NCBI GenBank assembly: GCA_006384855.1
Contig: VCJN01000188.1
Location: 62,001-126,000 of the forward strand
Direction: 5' to 3'
Length of the DNA: 64,000 nucleotides
Origin: Tetraselmis striata
Taxonomy: Eukaryota; Chlorophyta; Chlorodendrophyceae; Chlorodendrales; Chlorodendraceae
Position 1 is the stretch's first letter; the number at the start of each line of letters is the position of its first letter. Under the pieces are notes generated by a model. That model saw only the letters and a program-made list of their open reading frames with translations, searched no databases and was not told the DNA's origin. Made by a program: the position numbers and the translations under genes. This document shows, in pieces, positions 18,906-62,568 of the stretch.

Positions 18906-19270
18906 GCGTGGCTGGAGCCTGCGCACGGGTTAAGATCCACCAGTTCATTACTTTATTGACGCCTGTAGTAAAATGTGAGGAGATTCTCACGATAAACACG
19001 GCAGCGGATTGTCTGGCAGCGTGCCAGCATCCAGCACGGCTCCTCAGCGCTTTTGACAGACCGCGGCTATCAATCAAAGCTACAACCTCCTTGTACTTTG
19101 TACCTCTTTCAGTAGTCCACGGATTATCGATTCCCGGTGTCGGTCGGTTCGTTCGCGGACGTCGCGCATTACAAACGATCTAATATGACCAGCTAACATC
19201 AGTGTCATTTTTAAATCATTTCACGGATACCATGATATGAGTACATGACCAAGTAACATGTAGTCATATC

Positions 19271-21684
19271 ATTTATACAGTGGCTCGTACCGCCGCTGAT
19301 ACTTTTTGCCAGAGTTTTGCGGATGATTGCGGCGCGGCCACTGCCGCGGCCCACGTTCCGCGCGTTTTCGACGAGTACTGCACGGAGCTTTCCAAAGTCG
19401 GACTGGTGGTACAGGACAGTAAGACGCGGTACGTTCGTCACCCCGGCGACAGCGAGTCCGAGTTGCGGACAGTACGGGAGAAGTTGGCCCCGGGAGGATT
19501 TCGGACCCCGGCCGATGATCCTGTCCAGGATGGCGCCGTGTACCTGGGTGCTCCTATTAGCCATTACCCCGAGTGGATGACCGGCGCGTTGGGGCGGCGC
19601 CGGGAGGCCCACGCCACACTGTTGGAGCGCATCGCCTCCTTTGGCACGTCGGGATACGGCTGCCACCATGGGGCCATGCGGTTGCTGGTCGTATGCGCGG
19701 TGCGGCAGACTGGCTTCCTCAGCCGCATGATGCCGCCGTCGGAGCTGGACCCTTTCTTGGAGGCCGTGGACGCCGCCAACATTTCGGCTGCGTTTTCGCT
19801 GCTTGGCCTGGACGCTTGCGACCAGTCTACACCGCGCATGGAGGCTGCAATCGTTCAGATGAGTATGCCCGCCGATTTTGGCGGTCTGAATCTGGCATTG
19901 CTGCAGTCCGAGGCCCCTGCGGCGTTTTATTCCGCGCAATCGGTTGTCCTGCCAAAGCTAGTACGGGAGTACGGGCCCGCCCTTGGCCCCTTATACGAGG
20001 CGGTCCGCGCCGAGGTGTCGTCCGTGGCTACGAGTGCTTTGCCATGGGCGCGTGAGACGCGCCGCGTGTACGAGACTGTACGGGCCCTAACCACGTTACC
20101 GCAAGAAGATGTGCGGCGCGCACGCGCGGCGTATGGGCACGCCCACGAGATCTTCGAGTTACTTACGGGCAGTAATGCTACGACCACCGCTGCATCGGAT
20201 CCAGCAGCTGGTACTACGACCCGTACGGGTACGAGCACTAGCGGAGGATTGCGCGTCACCACATCTCCTTTTACGGCCACTCCTCTTGGAGTTGGTACTG
20301 GTGAGGCCGCCTCTGCTGCCCAGCAATTGCTTCCTATCGGTGGTACGAGTACTGCCAATACCGTTACTACATGCGCTTTTGTAGCTCTGAAGATACCGTC
20401 GCCGGGCGAATTAGTGGCACACCCTCCGTCAGCAGCCACTGTTTCCCTCCCAGAATCGCTGCCAGGTTCTACTGCTCCGCCCTCGGGTACGGGTTCGGGT
20501 GCGACCTCCGATGATCAACCCACGACCATGGTTGTCCAACGCCACCTCAGCCGTGCGATTCGCTTGCGTGACTTCGTGGCCCTCGATCTCAGCTTCCAAC
20601 GTACTGGTGCAGCGGCCTCGCGACTTGATACCCTGCGCCTGTACAGCGCGTGCGGGCCGGGCTCCCTATCGCTTTTCCAGTCGGATCACGAGTCCGCCCG
20701 CAAGATTCCCCATGCTGCTTATGCGGCCGCCGCTGCGCGGGTACTGGGCCTTTGCCCGCGCGGAGGTTCCGCGCTTGTCACTTGCCCTGGCCCAACGTGT
20801 GGTATTGATCCCTTATGGCTTCGCTCTACGGATGGCTCGAACCGGAGCGCTACGGATTTCATCGTGGATCATCTACCTATATGCCCCGTAGCGAACTACA
20901 AGCACCGCATGCATACCGCTTTGAAGAATCTGTGGGCATCTGTGGCAATTGATGCGGGGGCGGTGCTTGACCGGGACCGCTCGGGAGCCGGCGACTTGAC
21001 CCTTGAGACGAGTGGGCTGCGCCCAGCGGACCGCTCGCGGCCGTCGGACCTGACGCTGGCGGGGTGGGGAGGGGCAGCGTGCGATTACATGATCGACTTC
21101 GCGTGCGTGTCCTCCACGACCCCCACTTGGAGCAACGACCCCCGCTGGTGCATCCCGGGAATCGCGGCGACCGAGGCGGAGCATGCTAAGTTGGCAGCGG
21201 ACCGGGCGTCTTCCGCCCCAGTGCAGGGTGTTCACCGGTACTACCCTTTTGTGGTTGAGGACCGCGGCCGACTCGGGAAGTCCGCTTTGACTGTGGTCTA
21301 CATCTTCGCGGTGCTGTTGGCTGTGCGCAACTTCCCTGGCGGTCCTTCCGCCCCGACCTCTTGCTTTCTTCGTGGTCAATCCGTTCAGGCACTTCGAAAC
21401 TTTGTCGCCGGCCAACCTGCTGAGTTCCGCCGTCACCTGTCGCGCACACGGCGGGGGCTGTTGCAGCGGGTCTCGGCTTGCGTGCATGGTACCCTGGGCG
21501 GCATTCTCTCTGCCGGTGTGCAGATGGCCAAGTCTGATGCGTGTGCTCGTGCCCACTCTGCGTCTTCTCATGTTCCTGCTTCCACCCCGCAGTCGATGTA
21601 GAGGACCTTTCTGATTGCCTTTTATTTTGGTGATTTCCGATATCGCCTTCTGCTGCTAGCTCATGTAAATATTTATACAGTGGC
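19271..21684 (+). mobile_element. Non-LTR retrotransposon (LINE), 5'-truncated, 14-bp TSD
   Basis: The insert 19285-21670 is flanked by exact direct repeats ATTTATACAGTGGC at 19271-19284 and 21671-21684. The body starts inside the reverse transcriptase just before its catalytic motif and ends with a ~65-nt 3' UTR finishing 'gctagctcatgtaaat'. Loss of the 5' part with a preserved 3' end and a TSD is what target-primed reverse transcription leaves. Tail copies of the family lie at 10916-11131, 38839-38881 and 63106-63389. Confidence 0.93.
19286..21601 (+). pseudogene. LINE ORF: C-terminal RT plus restriction-like endonuclease (truncated)
   Basis: An open frame of about 770 codons to TAG. The N-terminus has 'QSFADDCGA', the RT catalytic motif in FADD form, then 'VGLVVQDSKTRYV' (motif D region) and 'VYLGAPISHYPEW' with the RT thumb-like 'FGGLNLALL'. 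Residues ~300-420 are Ser/Thr/Gly-rich. A CCHC-like knuckle follows (TCPGPTC ~503; DHLPIC ~530). The C-terminus resembles a PD-(D/E)XK nuclease: 'RPSDL' ~587, 'YMIDFAC' ~603, 'AEHAKLAADR' ~632, then 'YYPFVVEDRGRLGKSAL'. That order (RT, knuckle, nuclease) is typical of early-branching LINE clades such as R2/CRE. RT motifs before FADD are missing, so this copy cannot be autonomous. The frame is intact to the end, so the insertion looks young. Confidence 0.85.
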
Positions 21685-22047: not shown

Positions 22048-23896
22048 ATGCCAGACAGCGCGAGCCAGCGCGCCAGGCACGTGGCGCCTCTGCTGCTGCT
22101 GCTGTCGGCGGTGTTTTTGACGACGACAGCAGGTCCGACTACCTTGGTGGCTGCGCAAGTTGCGGCGCGGTGCGCGACAAGTCCGGATTCGGTGCGCATG
22201 CAGCTGCGCTGGCTGAAGAACGGCCAGTTCGCGGGCTACTACGCCGCGCAAGAGGCGGGCTACTATGCGGAGGTGAGCTAACAATAAGCCTAAGAACAAG
22301 CCGGCGGTTAGCTGTGAGTTCGAGCTGTGCGGACTCGCTGGGGATGGGGGAAAGCGGGAGGGGGCGCGGGCCCCGGGGGGGGGGGGGGGGGGGCAACACT
22401 CCATACTCCATGTCCGTAGTATGTACACTTGCAATTCGCTGTGGTCTTGCTTCTCGACATCCACCTTCGATCATATATGTCAGTCGGGTACCGCTATACA
22501 GTACCAGTACCCGTAGCCGCGACTAGTACCTGTACGGTGTGCTGCGTGTGGCTCGCCATTGCTAGCGCGGAAGTCTCCGTCGCTAGGTTCCAATCCTATA
22601 TAGAAACCTTAAGGATCAGTCGCTACCTTCCTTCCCAAGTACTTTCCGTGCATTCTCTCGATGCTCTCCCTGTAACCAACATCAATTAGGCCAGTTAGAT
22701 TTAATTTCTTTTTTAGGGTCCTTCTCTGGCCGAAATCGGAGGGGGGGGGGGATTTATCCAGTATAACCCCGACAATTGTGTGGCCAGTATATTGGCAGTA
22801 CTTCCAAAGCCGTACTGCAACCGGGCCTAATAGTGTAAATATGTGTCGGTTACAGGGTAACTGTTGTCGCGCGCACACTCACGGCAGACTAATGTGGGTA
22901 TGCAAGAGCCGCCACCGCCACGCCGCTGCATGCAGCAGCTGCATGCATACGGGTACCTGCCGGTGCGCAACCCTGAACAGCAAACACCATTACACCAACC
23001 TGTGCCAGTCCCTAGCGCCGGAGGTAGGGTCCGTAAGCGGCCGCGTCGTCGAGCTAGTACCAACGGCGCGATGGCAAGCAACGCCAACTGCACTGTTAAA
23101 GTGGCCGCCGTGACCTGGGATGGCTACTCGGTGGGCGGGCAGCGCTGCATGCCTGCATGTCCTTGACAAGCGCTGGCTACAAGCACACACTTGCTATGAG
23201 CTGATGCGGCATGTGGCGAAAAACATAGACCCGGAGTTGTCCTTTGATCTCGTGGAGCAAATGATGATGGTGTGCGTGGAGCACGAGGACATGGTCACAG
23301 GCTCCGGGCCAAAGCGACGGCGGCCCTCAGCTATCCCTGAACTGAACAAACAGGCGCTTACAACGCAGTTTGCGTGCTGGCACTTGGGTGCACAGTACTT
23401 TTAAATAGAATATCACCCAGCTACAGAATTTCTGGAGGGGGGGCAAATCGGAAGGGGGGGGGACCTAAAACCGATAATTAAATCTCACTGGCCTTATCAG
23501 TCGCTACCTGTACTCGTACCGTCCGGCCTCCTCGCGTCTGAAAGCCTCGCAGCCTGCTCGCGCGCCGCCGCCGCCTTAATCCTTATCCTGTAGTACCCGT
23601 ACCGGGGGGGGGGGGGGGGTACAGATCGCTAGACGAGGATCCGCACCCTGCTGCTGCTGATGACATTATTTTTCCATCAGCAGATATTATTAGAAACTGG
23701 TGGACATCAAGAGGATGCACATGTATAGGTACCATCAAGTGTAAGTATATCATAGAGCTGATTGATATCTATAGCGACTTATCTATACATGTAGTCGCTA
23801 CACATAGATAAAATATAAGTACAAATATATAAGTATAAGTACACACTGAGGCGTTTCACAATTGGGCGTCAGCACAATTGCAGTCCGGCCCGGGGG

Positions 23897-23927
<31 letters not shown>

Positions 23928-26900
23928 TGACAGCCTATTTGGGCTAGGACTGGTGCAAGACACCAGGACTGACCCCCCCCCCCCCCCCCCACCCCCCACC
24001 CCCCACCCCCTCCCCCTCCCCCGCGCGCGCGCGCGTCACCCTCTCTCGCGCGGTCTGTCTTTCTCCCCGCTAACGCAGGAGTGCCTGGACGTGGAGCTGC
24101 GGCAGCGTCTCGGCGGCGACACTGCCGAAGAGTCCGTGCTCCAGGGCGACGCGCACTTCGCGACGCCGTGGGCGATGAGCGATGTCGCCCTGCGCGAGGC
24201 CAACCGCACCACCTATCGTACCCTGGCGCAGGTGTTCAACCGGCCCGGCTCCACCATGCTGGTGCGCAACCTGTACGCCCCCAACCGCGTGTCCTCGCTG
24301 CGCGACATCCCCGCCGAGGCGCGCCGGCTGGGGCGCCCTGTCAAGATCGGCGTCAACGACGACATGTTCGCCCTCTGGGCGCGGCTGTCGGAGCTGGGAG
24401 TGCGCATCTGCGGCGCGTGGTCGGCTCCAGGCAAAAGCGGCCCGGCGTGCATGCCGGGCGATGAGGTCGAGCTGCTGGAGCGCGACTTGAACGGCATCCG
24501 GAACATGAAGCTGCCGCTGGACCACCCCGCCTTCATCGACATCTACTCCGGCCACGTCAACGACCTCAGCAACATCCTGCAGGCGGTGGCTGCGGACGGT
24601 GAGCTGGTGGGCTCGGCGGACCGGCTGAACTTCGTGAAGGTGGGCGGGGTGGAGCTGCTGGAGGACGGCGTGTGCGCGTCGCAGGAGTGGCTGTCGCAGC
24701 CGGGCAGCGAGGACATTGCGCGGCGATTCCTGCGCGCGACGATGAAGGGGTGGATGCTCTGCCGAGACAGCCCGCGCACATGCGCGACGATGATGGAGCG
24801 ACACGACTTGGCGCGGCAGCAGGAGTTCCTCTTCCAGATAGTGGAGGCGAGTGCTGTCTATCGCCCTGTCGTGAAATTGACCACCCTTTGCCGGCAATCC
24901 TTACACGGATGTGTCACCGCTTATTACTAGTTATATTCACTTAAGCACAGTGGCCATCAAAGTGTAAAGCTGAGAGGTTTTACACTCTCTCACACAGCCC
25001 TTCACGGCCATTGTTGTGAACATTTGCATATTTTATAGACAGTGGATTCGGGGGTCCAGATGCAATAAAAATAGCAATAAAACAAAGCTTTTGCTGATGG
25101 ATAGAAGTACAGTACAACGGGTATTAAAGGTAGCCAATGATGTCAGCAATAATAATGATGGACTGTTTCTGTATTCTCTCCCCAGGTGAACAAACTTGTT
25201 TGGCCAGCGCCGCTTGGAATCGGCGGGCCTTGATGCCATCCATTTCCAGCGGGAGTATGACTACTTGGCCGAGATGAACATCACATCGCGCAGCTACGAC
25301 GCCTCAACCAACGTGGTGCCCAGCATCATTAACAGCGTCATCGCCAACCTGGCGGGTGAGGGGCATGACGTGTACGGCTTCCGCTACGCGACAGAGGCCC
25401 ATCAGATAACGCTAGAGTACTGCCCAGGCGACGGGCAGCGCGGGCAGGCGGTGCTGTGCGCCATGCGCTGCAAGCCGGGCTCGGAGCCGCCGCCCGGGGG
25501 GCAGGTGTACCATGCCGAAGACTGCCTGCCTTGCGCGCAGGGCACTGCGTCCCCCGGGGGCACAGAGCCCTGCCTGCCTTGCCTGGAGGGCCATGATGCG
25601 CCGTCGGCGAGCATGGCGCAGTGCGTCGCCCCAAGCTCTCGAGCCCTCTACATCGGCCTCGCGGTGGCAGCCGCGGTGGTGTTTACGGCGCTGGTGCTGC
25701 TGGGCGCGCTGCTGTTCGTGCGGGGCCAAGCCCTGCAGCGGGAGCTGAAGGCGATGCAGCACGCCGACCCGGACGCCATGGACATGGACTCGCCGTTTGT
25801 CAAGGTGTTGGTCTTTCTGCAGGAGCTGGGGCAGGGGGAGCATGCGCACGTGTTGCGGCCTTGGAAGAAGGACGGCATGGAGCGGAAGGCCCGGGAGCTG
25901 CGCGCCATGCTGCTGCAGAGCAAGAACATTTCGGCGCCAGACGTTAAGGCGCAGATGGCTGGCCATTTCTCCGAGGACATTGTCCGTTTTGTGCTGGAGC
26001 ACACCATGGATGACACCCACATCAGCCCTGGAAGCTCCGACCCCTCAATTAGACACCCCAAACGCTCATCGGTGGAGTCGCCGAGGCCAAGTTCCTTTGA
26101 CATGACGCACGCGCGGGTCGCACTGAGCGGGCAGCTGAGCTTGGTGGGGCAGTCCTTTGCTCTCGACTCCTTCCACCTGCACTCCCTCTGCCCAAGCGGG
26201 CTTCTAGCCGTTTTGGCGGTGCGCTTCTGCGAGGACTGGGGCCTTAGCAAGCGGCTCAATCTCTCCATGTCCCGGCTTGCCACCTTCGCCAACGTCATTG
26301 AGAGCGGGCATCAAGACAACCCCTACCACTGCTTGGCCCACACGATCGACGTGACGGCGCGGCTAGCCGCCATCCTGAACAAGAGCGGCATAGCTGCGCA
26401 CATGACTCAACCCTACAGCGGCAGAAAGGGCCCCCTCACGCTTCTCGGAGCCTTGATTGCGGCGCTCGGTAAGTGCCCCCCTGGGCGGAGCGGTTGCGTC
26501 GGCCCCGCCATGCCAACATGCGCATGCCGCTGTCGCCAGTGGATGAATGGGCGTGGCAGCTGCTGACGGTCGGCTGCTGCTGCTGCTGCTGCTGTCAGTG
26601 CACGACTACAAGCACCTTGGTGTGAGTAACAACTTCCTGGTGACCACAGAGCAGGAGCTGGCCATCCAGTTCAATCACCAGTCCTGTCTCGAGGTGCGTG
26701 ACGCGCCACGCATTGAGGAGTGTCGCACTGCCAGGGAATGTCCCACTGTATCCCATGCTGCCTCGTAGGTGTCATCATCAACGAATCTCACCAGTGTGGG
26801 ACTTTCCTCTTTGTACAGAATTACGCTCTATTGGAAGCTCTCAACTATCTGCGCCAGCCGGAGATGTCATTCATGACCTGCTGCTCCTCATCCGAGCAGC

Positions 26901-28961
26901 TGCAACTGCGGTCTCTGGTCATCAAGTGCGCCCCCCCCCCCCCCCCCCCTTCACATTGTACAGCGGGCCATCCGCCAATGCCAGTGCCAGGCCGCTGCTT
27001 TCATGATCGTTTCACCTCCCCCCCTGCCGGAGGCCTGGTGATGCGGGAGGATGGTCGCTGACTGGGTGGTGTGGCGCGCAGAATGGTGCTAGCGACCGAC
27101 ATGAGCCAGCATTTCTCCATCCTAACTCTGGTGCGGACCAAAATCCTGGACGGCATCAACAGCAAAGCGGCGCCGCAGGAGCGCCTCGCGTCGCTCGGCA
27201 CGGAAGGAGTGCCACGTCCTGCTGCAGCTCTGCCTCAAGTGCGCCGACCTGGGCCACTGCAGCCTGCCCATCAAGCTGCACATCCGCTGGACGGAGGCTC
27301 TCCAGGAAGAGCTGTGGGCCCTGGGAGACCAAGAGAGGAGCCTCGGCCTGAGCGTCTCCCCGCTCGCGGACCGCATGAAGCCGGGTGTCCTTTGGGGCGG
27401 CAACCAGGTACCCCCCCAACGCACACGGTACTGCGGTTGATTTACCGCCACATCTTGCGTCATTGCAGTCGGTCAGGCGGTCGCCCTACCTATCCCTCTG
27501 CCCTCAACGGGTCGCTCCCTGACCTGCTTCCGGTGCATGCAGCTGCAGTTCAACTAACCAGTCTATGAGAATGGAGGTCCGGCAGGTCGAAATAAAATAG
27601 AATCGAAAAGGAATAGTACAGGGTTTGAAACTGTGTCGACAGTTGGATTGGTTTGAAATGAACTGACAGATGCGTCTCAGCCGTATTGCGAATCGATTTC
27701 GGAAAGCTCTAGGTGCATTGTTTGAGTTTGTACTGCCCGTTTATTCAGGAAAAGTACACGTGCGTTGTTTGAAATCAGATATCGATGCAGGAAAGCGGAC
27801 CGATGCGCGGCGATAGGACGATGATTTTTCTAACCCGACTGATGGCAACGATTACGAGTTACATATCGGAATGCGGGCCGATGCACAACTATTGGTTCGT
27901 GTTAGGTAATAATCCTTGTACGACATAGCAAAACGCGCAAACGACGCGTGCGCATACCGGTAAGGCTTACATAGCGCGTTCGGTATAAGAATTATAGTAT
28001 AAGGTTACCTAAACGCCGCGTAGCAATCAAGTGTACCAGCTAGGTATAAAGGGTTTTGCATTCGTTACTGCGTCTTGTTAGTCTGTTGCGATGGGAACTT
28101 GCGCAATAGTACTAACAATGGAATAGAATAATAGCAGAATGTAATAGAGTGAAAAACGATAGAAGGGTGGGAAAACACGGCCAGGCATGCTGTTGAAGAG
28201 GTTTTGCCACCTACGCGGTAGTACTATATATACACACACATACACATATACAGACGTGCGCCGACGTGTCCTATGCCTTAAACCGGGCTTGCATGCCACC
28301 CACGAGAACACTTTGGTGCGGTCCTCTGAGAGGATGGGCAGGTTATTATTTGCCGTGTTGTTGATGCCGTACCGGCCCCCGAATCTGGTGTATAATCTAT
28401 GTACTCGTTGAATAACTTCACTGGGTACATGTTTCATGATGCGACGGGTGGCAAGCAGCTCCTCTTTGGGGCCCTTCAAGTAGTCGGGGCTGCTTTAAAA
28501 CCTTGTGCCTCACTGACATACTAAGGCAGGCACCCCGCAAGTAGCCACATCCTCCGCCGACCAGCGCTCTGAGGGGTGAGCCGCCTGCTGTGCAGGTGGG
28601 GTTTTTCCAAGCGCTGGTCTGCCCGCTGTATAACATGCTGGCGGCCATAGCCCCGGAGTGCCACGAGCTGCTGGACGGTGTGAATGGCAATCTCGATTTT
28701 TGGAAAAGCCATCCTGAGGCGCCGCCGCCTGGGCTGCTGGCGAGCAAAGCCTCGAGCGAAGAAAGCTTGGCTGAGGAGACGCCCCCCGCAGAATCTTTCT
28801 CCCACGCACCCCCTCAGCTCGGCGGGGACGCACCTGCTGCTGCATTCCTTTCCGGAAGACTGACGCCCCACGGGAGCTCCAAGCCTCGCACGAGAGCCCC
28901 ACCAAGTAGGCACCGTCTCAGCCAGGAGAGTGGCATCGGCGATGTGGTGCTCTATGTGTAG
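22048..28961 (+). CDS. Transmembrane cyclic-nucleotide phosphodiesterase with NMT1/THI5-like solute-binding ectodomain
   Basis: Exons 22048-22272, 24079-24846, 25186-26468, 26599-26693, 26819-26925, 27082-27407, 28596-28961 (TAG), about 1055 aa after two +1 shifts. Signal peptide 'LLLLLSAVFLTTT'; solute-binding domain starting 'LRWLKNGQFAGYYAAQEAGY' and continuing through 'DAHFATPWAMSDVAL' to 'NKLVWPAPLGIG'; Cys-rich stalk with CxxC pairs; one membrane helix (~25650-25725); cytoplasmic PDE domain with 'YHCLAHTIDVT', 'HDYKHLGVSNNFL', 'LATDM', 'KCADLGH', 'DRMKPG'. The usual HDxDH is HDYKH, and LENHH appears as LENYA. Exon 2 uses a GC donor (GCGAGT). The frame shifts by one base at 25225-25229 and again near 27190-27204. 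Predicted to bind a small ligand outside and hydrolyse cAMP/cGMP inside; ligand unknown. Confidence 0.8.
22864..23404 (+). other. Coding-like fragment inside PDE intron 1
   Basis: The 1.8-kb intron 22273-24078 holds a coding-like stretch ending at TAA 23404, with 'LDKRWLQAHTCYELMRHVA' and a basic 'GPKRRRPSAIPELNK'. It has no recognised domain and no splice link to the PDE frame. It is probably a remnant of a mobile element. The intron also carries G runs at 22375, 23604 and 23900. Confidence 0.35.
27674..27720 (+). repeat. Short shared block, also at 42731-42776
   Basis: 'cgtattgcgaatcgatt' plus flanking bases recurs at 42731-42776 in the last HflX intron, followed in both places by 'cacgtgc.tt.tt'. 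It marks an old dispersed repeat of unknown extent, within PDE intron 6 (27408-28595). Confidence 0.55.
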
Positions 28962-39121: not shown

Positions 39122-39253
39122 ATAGACGATCCGTCAGTACAAAGGAACTGTTCGCGAGAGCAAACGACAGCGTACACGAAGACCGCTATCCTTGCAACCC
39201 TCTACTTATTGAGCCGGCGTACACCTGACGACACGGGCTTAGGCGGGAGCGGT

Positions 39254-40873
39254 ATGATGTTGCCGGCCACTGCTGCCGACAGGCGGGCCGGCCGGGCGGC
39301 GGTACCGACAGCGGGGGGGCGCTCGGCTCTGATGAGGCTGGCAGTGGCGTTGCTGCTGGCGTTGGGTTCGTCGAGGGTGGTGGTAGGACGAGGCCTGCAG
39401 CAAGACGCCCCGCGCCGGGATGTCACTGGCGGGGAAAAGGGGCCGTCGCCACGCAGGCCGTCCACACTGGGGGAGCTGCTGGCTGCTCACCACCAGAGGC
39501 TGGAGGAGGTGGACGCGGCCGCGTCGCCGCACCAGATGTCGGAAGCCTATAAAGCGGGCCTGCTGCACGAGCCCTTCTGTCCGACGGTGTATGTGTATGA
39601 CGCGCCGGAACTTTGGGACTATCCGGTACCTTTCGCCGAGCTGCACCACCTGAACCCCGCAGCGCTGGTGGGGACGCCCTGCGGCGACGGCACGTTCGAC
39701 ACGGACCAGTACACGATGGCAATGCTGGTGCTCTACAGGCTGGCGGTGTCGACTCGCTGCCGGGTGACGACGGACCCGACGCAGGCGGAGCTCTTCCTCG
39801 TCCCCGCCTTCCCGACGCCCAAGAACCACGACGCGCTGCACTCTCTATGTGAGCACGAGACGCCCATAGAGCGCCATCTGCCCCACCTCACCGCCGACAC
39901 GGCGCACCGGCACGTCATGTTGCTTTCAAAGGGGCACATCAACTTGCACGACTGCGACTGGTGGCGGCAACCGCAGGGGCTGCTGGCGGGCGCGACGCGG
40001 GTGTCGTACAGCGTGGTGGTGCGGGGCGAGTGGGACCCGCCGGGAGGGGTGGCGCGGCGAAAAGACGGTGCCTCGATCTACGGCCCGTTCGATGGACCAG
40101 AATGGCCCCTGGACCGCCTTGCTGCCGCGCGCGACTATGACGACAGCGGCGCGGTGTACCCGCATGCCTTCTCGGTGCCATACCCCTCCGACGTGCACTG
40201 GGACGTCGACGCGGGCCCTGGGCCCTGGGCGCGCGTGGACCGCCCGCGCCGGTACCTGGCCTCCTTCATCGGCGCCATGCACGGCGAGTACGGAATCGCA
40301 GTGCGGCGGCGGATCGCGCAGGTATGCAAGGCCGCCGGCGAGCCCGCGTGCCACTACGCCGACCTGCGCAAGCTGCCGCACGACAGGACGGTGGCAGTCG
40401 AGGGCGCGGCGGTGCGGCTCCCGAAGGGGCATTGCCACTTTGGGGAGTACAAGCAGGACGCGGTGTTTTGCCTCGAGCCGGGCGGCGACTCGCCCTACCG
40501 CAAGTCCCTGTCCGACGACATCGCGATGGGCTGCATCCCCGTCGTTTTTTCGCCCTACATGGAGCTGGTGGACCCCTGGCACTGGGACCACTTCCGCAAC
40601 GACAGCCACGTGTACATCAACCGGGAGGACTTTCTGCAAGGGCGGCTGAACCTGTTCGAAGTGCTGCAGCGGCTGGTGGACTCGGGGGAGGCGCGGCGCA
40701 AGCAGCACGCCATCGCGCGCCACGGGCACGCGTTTCAGTACTCGCTGCGCGACTACCCCGGCGACGCGGTGGAGCGGCTGCTGGTGGGGGCGGCCCGCGA
40801 GGCGGAGCGCCGGGCGCCTGCGTCGCGCCCCAATGCCGCACACGTCGCGGGTGGCGAGCAACCGCTGCGCTGA
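39254..40873 (+). CDS. Exostosin-family glycosyltransferase (GT47), intronless
   Basis: Single open frame of 539 aa from the first ATG (39254) to TGA. The N-terminus has a hydrophobic stretch, 'LMRLAVALLLALGSS', likely a type II signal anchor for the Golgi. The exostosin domain spans roughly residues 105-505: 'CPTVYVYDAPELWDY', 'AELFLVPAF', 'YSVVVRGEW', 'YPHAFSVPYPSDVHW', 'RRYLASFIGAMHGEYG'. The family hallmark 'FCLEPGGDSPYRKSLSDD' followed by 'GCIPVVFSPY' marks the nucleotide-sugar binding half. GT47 enzymes build cell-wall or extracellular-matrix glycans; the donor sugar cannot be told from sequence. Upstream in-frame codons lack an ATG. It is a paralogue of the minus-strand gene at 58609-60180. 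Lack of introns is unusual in this neighbourhood. Confidence 0.92.
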   Translation: MMLPATAADRRAGRAAVPTAGGRSALMRLAVALLLALGSSRVVVGRGLQQDAPRRDVTGGEKGPSPRRPSTLGELLAAHHQRLEEVDAAASPHQMSEAYKAGLLHEPFCPTVYVYDAPELWDYPVPFAELHHLNPAALVGTPCGDGTFDTDQYTMAMLVLYRLAVSTRCRVTTDPTQAELFLVPAFPTPKNHDALHSLCEHETPIERHLPHLTADTAHRHVMLLSKGHINLHDCDWWRQPQGLLAGATRVSYSVVVRGEWDPPGGVARRKDGASIYGPFDGPEWPLDRLAAARDYDDSGAVYPHAFSVPYPSDVHWDVDAGPGPWARVDRPRRYLASFIGAMHGEYGIAVRRRIAQVCKAAGEPACHYADLRKLPHDRTVAVEGAAVRLPKGHCHFGEYKQDAVFCLEPGGDSPYRKSLSDDIAMGCIPVVFSPYMELVDPWHWDHFRNDSHVYINREDFLQGRLNLFEVLQRLVDSGEARRKQHAIARHGHAFQYSLRDYPGDAVERLLVGAAREAERRAPASRPNAAHVAGGEQPLR

Positions 40874-58608: not shown

Positions 58609-60180
58609 TCAGTTTCCCACAGTATGGGTCATATTTGACGTGCCCACGATAGACCTGCTCGCGCTGCCGGCCATCCTCCTCTCCCGGCGCTCCGCCTCGC
58701 GGGCCGCCCCCACCAGCAGCCGCTCCACCGCGTCGCCGGGGTAGTCGTGCAGCGAGTACTGAAACGCGTGCCCGTGGCGAGCGATGACGTGCTGCATGCG
58801 CCGCGCCTCCCCCGAGTCCACCAGCCGCTGCAGCACATCGAACAGATCCAGCCGCCCTTCCAGAAAGTCCTCCCGGTTGATGTACACGTGGCTGTCGTTG
58901 CGGAAGTGGTCCCAGTGCCAGGGGTCCACTAGCTGAAGATAAGGCGAGAAGACCACGGGGATGCAGCCCATTGCGATGTCATCGGACAGCGACTTCCGGT
59001 AAGGCGAGTCACCGCCCGGCTCGAGGCAGAATATGGCGTCTTGTTTATAGCGCTTGAAGCGGCAATGTCCCTTTACGACGGAGTCGTCCTTCTTGGCGTG
59101 CTTGGCTTGCTGCTTTTGCAGCTTGGAGAGCGTGGCCATGTTGGCATGCAAGCAGGCGGGCTCGCCGGCCGCCTTGCACACCTCCACGATACGCTGTCGC
59201 ACCGCCACGCCATATTTTCCATGTATATCACCTAGGAAGGAGGCCATGAAGCGACGAGGGCGGTCCACTCTCGCCCAGGGGCCCACACCCCCGTCCGCGC
59301 CCCAGTGCACATCGGAGGGGTATGGCACCGAGAAGGCGTGCGGGTACACCAGGCTGCTATCATCATAGTCGCGGGCGGCGGTAAGGCGGCTCAGAGGCCA
59401 GTCTGGGCCGTCGAAGGGCCCGTAGGCGGCGTGCTTTGGGGGGCCTGGCGCCGGCGCTGCGTCGTCGTCGTCCCACTCTCCTCGCACCACCACGCTGTAA
59501 GACACGCGCGTCGCCTCCGTCAGCAGCCCCCTCGGCTGCCGCCACCAGTCGCAGTGCTTTGCGTTGCTGTGCCCCTTCGACATCATGAGCAAGTGGCGGG
59601 GCGCGGTCTCCGGACTGAGATGGGGCAGGTGCTGCTCCAGCGCCTCCCCGCGTTCGCACATGTCCCCTATTTGCGCGCCGCGCTTGGGAGCCGGGAAGGC
59701 GGGCACGACGAACAGCTCCGCCTCCGCCGGGTCCTTCGTCACCCGGCAGCGCGTCGATGCCGCCAATCGGTACAACACCAGCATCGCCATTGCGTACTGC
59801 TCCGTGTCAAAGGTCCCATCACCGCAGGGCTTACCCACTATGGCAGCTGGGTCAGCCCGGTGGAGCTGAGCGAACGGGATCGGGAAGTCCCATAATTCCG
59901 GGGCGTCGTAGACATATACTGTTGGACAGCGAGGTTCGCTATGCGGCGGGTGTCGGTGCGCTACGAGGTGCGCCGACACCTTGCTGCGCTCCCTGTGCGG
60001 GCCTCGTTCGCGCCGCGCGTGCTGAAAGAGCGCCCGGGCCGAGGTCGGACCCGGCACGCACACTAGGAGAAACAGGAGCGTGGCCAACGCGGCCGCAGAC
60101 AGCTTCGAAAACGCCGCCAGTCTGCTGGCGCGCTGGACGCGAAAGACCTCTGCCGCGCCCGGCGTGCCTGGCTGGGACAT
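58609..60180 (-). CDS. Exostosin-family glycosyltransferase (GT47), intronless paralogue
   Basis: Single open frame of 523 aa, ATG at 60180. A signal anchor near residues 28-48 ('ALATLLFLLVCVPG') predicts a type II Golgi protein. The domain order is the same as in the gene at 39254-40873 and most motifs are identical: 'CPTVYVYDAPELWDF', 'AELFVVPAFPAPK', 'YSVVVRGEW', 'YPHAFSVPYPSDVHW', 'FCLEPGGDSPYRKSLSDD', 'GCIPVVFSPYLQLVDPWHWD'. It differs by a Lys/Gln-rich insert ('LQKQQAKHAKKDD') before the hallmark, a different N-terminus and a different C-terminal tail. No introns or poly-C tracts. Likely a glycan-synthesis enzyme; donor and acceptor unknown. Confidence 0.92.
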   Translation of the reverse strand: MSQPGTPGAAEVFRVQRASRLAAFSKLSAAALATLLFLLVCVPGPTSARALFQHARRERGPHRERSKVSAHLVAHRHPPHSEPRCPTVYVYDAPELWDFPIPFAQLHRADPAAIVGKPCGDGTFDTEQYAMAMLVLYRLAASTRCRVTKDPAEAELFVVPAFPAPKRGAQIGDMCERGEALEQHLPHLSPETAPRHLLMMSKGHSNAKHCDWWRQPRGLLTEATRVSYSVVVRGEWDDDDAAPAPGPPKHAAYGPFDGPDWPLSRLTAARDYDDSSLVYPHAFSVPYPSDVHWGADGGVGPWARVDRPRRFMASFLGDIHGKYGVAVRQRIVEVCKAAGEPACLHANMATLSKLQKQQAKHAKKDDSVVKGHCRFKRYKQDAIFCLEPGGDSPYRKSLSDDIAMGCIPVVFSPYLQLVDPWHWDHFRNDSHVYINREDFLEGRLDLFDVLQRLVDSGEARRMQHVIARHGHAFQYSLHDYPGDAVERLLVGAAREAERRERRMAGSASRSIVGTSNMTHTVGN

Positions 60181-61088
60181 GTCCGTTTCGCCGACAAGCT
60201 ACAGGTGCCTTCCCGGTGCGCTGGGTCTGCTGCCACTCTGCTAGGACACCGTTAGCCTACTATCGTCTAGTGCGCTTGCTTGCTCGCGGGCGCTGCATGA
60301 TAAAAAGCAACTGGTAAGCCGAGCCTGCGGAGTCCTGCCGGCGGGGCCGGGCGGCGGGCTCCGCCCGCTTGCTGCTGCTGGTAAATCCTTACCAGGTACG
60401 CGTCGTAAACGGTTACTGCTACGGTGGTGCTACCCGTACCTACCCTGCTACCACACCTGTACCCGGTCGCTAGGAATAATACATGAAGCGAATTATTACA
60501 TTATATCCGGTAAAATATACCTAATCCCGTAACGAGCTCTGATATTTGCGGATCTTTACCCGTGCATAGGTTCATGTAGTAAATAACACACGCAAGACCG
60601 TTAAACGGTACAATACACTGGTACACGAAAACAATTCTTGGCGGCTTCCAATAATACTTCCCGGCTGTACTATCTGAAAGGCCTCACGCTCCAATGCCGG
60701 CCGTGCTACCTGGATGGGCTTACGGCCATCCATGCCCAGGCCGGCATATCTGACGTTTCAACAGTCACAAGCTCACAACCGAGCTGTTGCGACGATAATG
60801 GTTTGAGTCTTTGGGATACGTTTGCAGCAAAGTAGTACAAGCGGGAACAGCGGGACATGGACTACTGTCCGGTTTTCTGAATAAGAACTGATCTTGCTGC
60901 ACGGTCTTCGACCCTTGTTCCCCCTTCAATATGTATAGATGTGCCTCATATACATCCTTAGTAGATGCACATCACCAACCCACAGGCAAAGCTGAATTGT
61001 CCTGATGCCGGGGACCAATGATGCACCTGTACTACGCCTAGCGTGCGCTTGAGGGCAGCCCCTCCGACCCCTCTATCTTCGCATCTAT
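60181..61088. other. Intergenic between exostosin and glutaredoxin genes
   Basis: Upstream flank of the exostosin gene and downstream flank of the glutaredoxin gene. No gene or repeat is recognised. Confidence 0.5.
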
Positions 61089-62568
61089 CTAGCCGTTAAG
61101 GGCTTCCTTCAGTGACCCGTCCGTCGCCATCTCTTCGACGATGTCACACCCGCCCATCAGCTCGCCGTTGACGTACAGCTGCGGAAAGGTGGGCCAGTCC
61201 GAGTACGTCTTCAGCCCCTGCCGCACCTCCTCGTCTCCCAGGATGTCAAAGGTGCGGAAGGGCACGCCCGTGGCCTGCAGCGCCTCCACCACGCGGCGGC
61301 TGAACCCGCAGCGTGGCGCAGCGGGCTCGCCCTTCATGAAGAGCAGCACGCCGGGCGGCTCAAGCAGCGCCTTGATACGCGACGTCACATCCTCCGGCGC
61401 CGCGGACAGCGCTTCCTTGAGCGACCCATCCGCTGACATCTCCTCCACGATGTCGCAACCCCCTAGCAGCTCGCCGTTGACATACAGCTGTGGGAACGTG
61501 GGCCAATCCGAGTACGTCTTCAGCCCCTGCCGCACCTCCTCGTCTCCCAGGATGTCAAAGGTGCGGAAGGGCACGCCCGTGGCCTGCAGCGCATCCACCA
61601 CGCGGCGGCTGAACCCGCAGCGCGCCTCCTCCGCATTGCCCTTCATGAAGAGCAGCACACCGGGTGCTGCCAGCAGCGCTTTGATGCGGGCGGTGACGTC
61701 CTGCGTGCTGCCCGGGGCTGGGGCTACTGTTGCTGGCGCTGCAGCCGGCGCCACACTGCCACCCGCCAGCTGCTTCACCTTGCCCACCAGCGCAGGCACG
61801 TCGGCGCCGTCCAGGGTGTCTACCTGCTTGCCGTTCTGTTTGCGACAGAAGAAAGTGGAGATTAGGACAAGGGGAGGCTAGATATTGAGAGGTGTGTTTG
61901 TGTGTATTGCGTTGAGAAGTAGCATGGCAGGGTTGGGGTAGACTACCAACAAGACAGCGAGGATGGCTGGCCTGGGGGGGGGGGGGGGGGGGGGGGGGCA
62001 GTGAACCTTGAGGAACACCACGTACGGCACCGAAGCTACATTGTACTTCTCGGACACGTCATAGACCTCCTCCGCCTCTACCTGCAGGCAGCACAAGGAT
62101 GGGCAGCTTAGCAACAGTGCCCAAGGCCTGACGCGGGAAGTTCACGCAACATGGGTGCGTGTGGGTCTAAGTGTGGGCAGGTGTGAGGGCGAACAGGGGG
62201 GGGGGGGGGGGGGGGGGCACCCGCACAAACTTCATGCCGCTGTGCTCCTTGGCCAGCTCCTCCAGCACCATGTCCATCTGCTTGCACGGTTCGCTCCATG
62301 CCGCCCAGAAATGGCAAACCACCTGCCAGAGCCAAGGCGAGAGCCAGAAGACGAGAGGCGGGGGGGGGGGAGGGGTGGGGGGGGGGGCTGAAGGCGTCTA
62401 TGGCATGTGTGAGGTTGCAGACTCCCCACAGCGCGATGTCCTCTGTCACCCCTAACAAGTACCTGGGCTGGGCTGGGCTGGGCGTCGCATCATAGAGAGA
62501 GTGGGGTGTAGATGAGGGCGAGGTAGAGCTGAGTGGTTGCGCACGCGAGGGGGGTGGAATCAAGCAGG

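Follow-up and report, generated by a model that had tools for sequence, protein, structure and literature searches.

The gene at positions 22048-28961 (+) of the window, the whole 64,000-nucleotide stretch of DNA analyzed here, carries in its exons the parts of a receptor phosphodiesterase (PDE) whose ectodomain is a solute-binding domain (SBP) of the NMT1/THI5 type. This architecture is that of a larger receptor-PDE family, and the window copy itself may be broken. We consider it fairly probable that the gene belongs to a family of single-pass receptor PDEs in a photosynthetic alga, in which a solute would set the breakdown of cAMP or cGMP. The host is photosynthetic, as the same assembly has 63 chlorophyll a/b-binding matches.

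Architecture of the locus

The locus consists of seven exons with consensus splice sites, and the introns comprise five of the GT-AG and one of the GC-AG type. The features are as follows.

Exon 1, 22048..22272 (+): signal peptide and beginning of the solute-binding domain
Exon 2, 24079..24846 (+): main body of the NMT1/THI5-type solute-binding domain; the GC-AG intron follows
Exon 3, 25186..26468 (+): SBP end, Cys-rich stalk, membrane helix, cytoplasmic linker and PDE start
Frame break 1 in exon 3, 25219..25231 (+): VNKLVWPAPLGIG in one frame, GLDAIHFQREYDYL in another
Cys-rich stalk, 25415..25624 (+): 8 Cys
Single membrane helix, 25646..25720 (+): Kyte-Doolittle 2.82 over 19 residues
Juxtamembrane motif MDMDSPFVKVLVFLQEL, 25778..25828 (+)
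Class I PDE domain, exons 3-7, 26324..28682 (+): PF00233
Exon 4, 26599..26693 (+): metal motif HDYKHLGVSNNF
Exon 5, 26819..26925 (+): LE|NYALLEAL
Exon 6, 27082..27407 (+): metal Asp within KCADLGH; PF00233 at 2.1e-12 for the second half
Frame break 2 in exon 6, 27190..27207 (+): high third-position G+C switches frame
Exon 7, 28596..28961 (+): QVGFFQ, C-terminal tail and TAG stop

An earlier note, made from the letters of the DNA alone, had proposed these coordinates, the seven exons, the SBP, the Cys-rich stalk, the one helix and the PDE, and splice sites, Pfam and hydropathy confirm all of them. It had also described a single chain; the domains do lie in the exons in the order that it gave, but the two frame breaks in exons 3 and 6 had gone unreported.

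The signal peptide was recognized by hydropathy (1.73) and by eye rather than by a dedicated predictor. Besides it there is one strong helix (2.82), and the stalk holds its 8 Cys within 85 residues; over the last 189 residues the hydropathy maximum is 1.64, located inside the PDE. NCD3G/TNFR-like Pfam scores of the window stalk are weak and below the cut-off, and the ephrin-receptor-like score of the stalk of a paralogue, C2808(-), is also below it. Third-position G+C in the chosen exon frames is 0.68-0.92, and exons 1-6 stand out as coding-like; no distinct signal was found in exon 7 (0.67/0.53/0.68) or in the 39-base piece ahead of frame break 1. None of the chosen exon frames has a stop ahead of its last codon. 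Intron 1 contains an element of ∼0.8 kb (22685-23497) that has imperfect inverted repeats of 37 nt (76%) at its termini and perhaps a TTA target duplication, and we take it to resemble a small PIF/Harbinger-type element.

Paralogues and the unity of the gene

A search of the same genome with the window SBP protein gave 22 matches. They include two loci on C2808, designated C2808(-) and C2808(+) by strand, which match the window SBP at 86-87% in the main exon, and loci on C1798 and C2028 at 42-58%; each of the four has a PDE match downstream on the same strand. A further gene, on C2070, was found by reading upstream of PDEs and has an SBP (1.8e-7) and a PDE (1.2e-25) separated by a helix (hydropathy 2.87), while its N-terminal PDE piece matched no Pfam family. 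C2371 is a haplotig-like copy of C2070 (99.4% alike). In the DNA as read, the window gene and C2070 share the place and phase of the intron that precedes VN[KR], a sequence feature that speaks for a common eukaryotic ancestor of the two, one that lies beyond what the tree can show. At C1798:197814-199780 (-) and C2028:143258-148276 (+), possibly two haplotypes of a single locus, the frame changes within the SBP lie at different places, and each has one stop in a matched piece.

The earlier note had named, as a finding that would count against it, RNA evidence that the SBP and PDE exons are two separate genes. That two neighboring genes were wrongly joined is very improbable in our judgment. 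The 1806 bp between exon 1 and exon 2 would suit such a misjoining, whereas in exon 3 of C2808(-) the SBP end, stalk, helix (2.78) and PDE start share one exon and one open frame of 475 residues, which answers the objection in part. Moreover, C2808(+), C2070, C1798 and C2028 likewise have an SBP ahead of a PDE on one strand. A single gene with an SBP ectodomain on a PDE, recurring at other loci, is supported by these gene structures.

Solute-binding ectodomain

Exons 1 and 2 match PF09084 (NMT1/THI5) at 4.2e-14 and 53.4 bits (cut-off 20.5); the match falls in two stretches, the best of which spans positions 1-83 of the 216 in the profile. The ectodomain has a type 2 periplasmic-binding fold, with sulfonate, thiamin, formyl-aminopyrimidine and Thi5 structures in a near tie. 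For comparison, 80 bacterial relatives were kept of at least 298 confirmed. The window SBP retains 39 of the 70 near-invariant positions of these 80 (the QFAGY subgroup) and falls outside the subgroup; among the residues lost are W119, G122, N123, and E124 (window SBP numbering), presumed to be located in the ligand pocket. The pyrimidine- or sulfonate-like ligand suggested earlier thus finds no support, because the fold is nearly tied among the four structure types and the conserved bacterial residues are gone.

The likeness to the NMT1/THI5 SBPs (SsuA, ThiY, the thiamin-binding protein 4nmy and Thi5) lies in the family score and the fold. The bacterial proteins look like free transporter proteins, whereas the window SBP would be fused to a PDE and differs in the conserved residues. 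The frames of 79 of the 80 bacterial relatives end within their locus, and that of L101 runs past its edge. Judging by the lengths and by the 11 longest frames, which were read, no enzyme follows the SBP in the 80 kept relatives; one of the 11 is a tandem of two SBPs.

Several other NMT1/THI5-type sequences were met in the assembly. L021, L022, and L023 (contigs C1610, C1807, and C2280) are bacterial stretches inside the algal assembly, and the SBP of L023 clusters with a Stappia SBP. On contig C1116 (L025), an NMT1-like frame lies on the same strand as, and near, a frame that we take to be FolD-like, possibly as one fused gene. A THI5-like gene, apparently intron-bearing and separate from the receptor genes, is present in two similar copies on contigs C453 and C232 (L024/L026 and L027/L028).

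Phosphodiesterase domain and predicted activity

With an X placed at frame break 2, the joined window PDE matches PF00233 at 4.2e-53 and 180.9 bits (cut-off 24.8), and exons 3-6 match PDE1B at 1.3e-22. The window PDE keeps the metal motifs NPYHCLAH, HDYKH, and KCADLGH and the Gln of QVGFF; the metal-ligand roles of the HxxxH, HD and Asp residues and the role of the Gln are assumed here from the PDE literature. The metal residues are also kept in C2808(-) (NPYHCxxH, HDYKH, CAD), and the QVGFF Gln motif was read in the window copy only. PF00233 and the metal motifs are common to the window PDE and class I PDEs such as PDE1B and PDE4, from which it differs by its proposed fusion to an extracellular sensor and by LENYA in place of LENHH.

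The earlier note had doubted that the enzyme is active. Its reading of the changes at HDxDH as a defect was mistaken, as in HDYKH both residues of HD and the second His are retained; at the fourth position, PDE1B has Glu, and the sister genes L004/L005, like the window copy, have Lys. The departure of LENYA from LENHH had been correctly seen, and the counterpart reads LENHA in C2808(-) and TENVS in L004/L005. The doubt is misplaced for HDYKH but is warranted for two other members, in which metal ligands are lost: in C2070, HD reads SD or PD, depending on the splice choice, and the third-motif Asp is gone, and C2808(+) has AD in place of HD. Since the window gene keeps its metal residues and these two have lost some, the window-type PDE looks catalytically active, while the PDEs of C2070 and C2808(+) look dead.

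It could be asked whether the window PDE has become a decoy or scaffold that, instead of hydrolysing cyclic nucleotides, binds them or forms a pair with an active PDE. The dead-looking PDEs of C2070 and C2808(+) and the LENYA change would agree with such a role; on the other hand, both motif-1 His, HD and the third-motif Asp are kept in the window copy and in C2808(-), and the window copy also has the Gln, so that we hold this role to be unlikely. On C1502, C1114, C1990, C1552, C1378, C75, C436, C1031, and C554, a roughly common stretch (55-164) is covered by nine PDE-profile matches of 43.6-50 bits, which are perhaps a separate repeated family.

Frame breaks in the window copy

The window exons sum to 3170 nt, which is not a multiple of 3, and the frame that opens with the ATG stops after 346 residues. 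With its two frame breaks, the window copy possibly yields no full-length protein. The place of frame break 1 is continuous in both C2808 paralogues and in the bacterial relatives, and that of frame break 2 is continuous in C2808(-), which is intact: MNKLIWPAPLGIGGLDTILFQRQYDFLAEM lies within one 475-residue frame and RLASLNTEQCGILLQLCLKCADVGHC within one frame of 199 residues. A search of the assembly with the exon 3 DNA found the window copy (C149) and the two C2808 paralogues only, and no second (haplotype) copy of this exon. C431, which is 98.4% alike the window copy and ends in intron 2, is probably its other haplotype and has a small frame-changing difference of its own in exon 2, ∼370 bases from the contig end. 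Since C431, C1798, and C2028 all change frame inside the SBP, an SBP free of breaks is seen only in the C2808 copies and C2070.

Given the changes in C431, C1798, and C2028 and an exon 3 that matches only paralogues, assembly error and recent loss are about evenly balanced. That the breaks are assembly errors in a gene that is whole has somewhat below an even chance. Five haplotig-like pairs differ by small gaps, the worst being L001/L002 with 39 gap openings in 3.6 kb and the others having 2 to 15; frame changes whose position varies among several SBP copies would agree with a general rate of indel errors, and the coding signal is otherwise clean. Against errors of assembly, the breaks lie outside long homopolymers, the long frames at 39122-40873 and 58609-60198 of the window are unbroken, and the exon 3 search gave no second copy. 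The same observations on homopolymers and neighboring frames favor a recently dead member of the receptor-PDE family, whose product would be a secreted SBP fragment of ∼346 residues at most, or nothing, and the frame changes in C431, C1798, and C2028, with the stops in the last two, would fit a decaying family. Such a loss, to which we would also give slightly less than an even chance, sits poorly with exon frames that have no early stop, the coding-like third-position signal of exons 1-6, splice sites that all fit the consensus and metal ligands that are kept; moreover, the break in C431 is close to a contig end, where assemblies are often poor.

Other candidate receptor phosphodiesterases in the genome

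In a survey of 20 stretches upstream of PDE genes in the same genome, six have other ligand-binding ectodomains by similarity. The haplotig-like pair L030/L031 has an ANF-receptor ectodomain (5.6e-12 for L031), to which that of L035 is related, and L042 has a PstS-like one (PstS 1.1e-7), with relatives in L039 and L047. Cadherin-like repeats in C2163 (L040) score below the cut-off. Behind the helix, a pattern scan found a DxDxPxxKVxxFL-like juxtamembrane motif in 3 of the 20 stretches (L039, L040, and L047), and by eye it is also present in C2070, L042 and both C2808 copies. Among the receptor-PDE genes, the PDE tree resolves only the PstS-type pair and one further group. We tentatively propose, at rather less than even confidence, a modular one-component sensing system in which a shared helix-linker-PDE unit carries several heads (NMT1/THI5-, PstS-, and ANF-receptor-like), so that solutes outside the cell, perhaps including phosphate via the PstS-like head, would directly control the breakdown of cyclic nucleotides, and PDEs without metal ligands would be regulatory partners of active ones.

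Proposed mechanism and comparison with known systems

The order of a single-pass Venus-flytrap receptor enzyme (signal peptide, ectodomain, helix, enzyme) is present in the window exons, with the two frame breaks. In the receptor reading, for which the domains, their order, the paralogues and the kept metal ligands are observed, the two-lobed NMT1/THI5-type domain would be secreted to the outside of the cell, and the Cys-rich stalk and one helix would tie it to a short linker and the class I PDE inside. By analogy with receptor guanylyl cyclases and Rh-PDE, binding of a small solute may close the lobes, and closure may move the helices of a putative dimer and so change PDE activity, in a direction that could be up or down. 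Through such coupling to an active enzyme, the solute would set the breakdown of cAMP or cGMP without a G protein.

Receptor guanylyl cyclases and trypanosome receptor adenylate cyclases consist of a Venus-flytrap ectodomain, one helix and a cyclase. What they share with the receptor proposed for the window gene, and what is described for the trypanosome enzymes (PMC6027212), is a two-lobed extracellular binding domain and a cyclic-nucleotide enzyme on one chain. The receptor cyclases make the messenger, whereas the window enzyme belongs to the kind that destroys it; in addition, the window ectodomain is NMT1/THI5, unlike the usual receptor type; the sister gene L031, on the other hand, has an ANF-receptor ectodomain. 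The choanoflagellate rhodopsin phosphodiesterase (Rh-PDE) is described as a membrane sensor and a PDE on one chain (PMC7644710), and its likeness to the receptor proposed here is this fusion. The sensor of Rh-PDE is a light-sensing rhodopsin, in contrast to an extracellular solute-binding domain with one helix. A rhodopsin phosphodiesterase was ruled out for the window gene, in which a single strong helix, apart from the signal peptide, stands in place of a seven-helix domain.

In eukaryotes, outside chemicals are generally considered to act on cyclic-nucleotide levels mostly via G-protein receptors or receptor cyclases. If true, destruction of the messenger by a receptor upon meeting an outside solute would be a different signaling logic. 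With PstS-like or NMT1-like heads, nutrients would be the natural ligands, and PDE copies with and without metal ligands in the same genome make the question testable. Among the literature matches listed, which covered little of the subscription literature, no title or start of an abstract names a receptor PDE with such an ectodomain. Volvocine protein databases may already contain related domain combinations that have gone unremarked.

Other features of the window

Upstream of the receptor gene, an open frame of 786 residues (19241-21601) is presumably a portion of a non-LTR retrotransposon. The two long frames at 39122-40873 (+) and 58609-60198 (-) are similar to each other, lie in opposite orientation and contain CPTVYVYDAPELWD; we take them to be exostosin-like. 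At 61089-61877 (-), there are two tandem domains with CGFSRRVV, which are presumably glutaredoxin-like.
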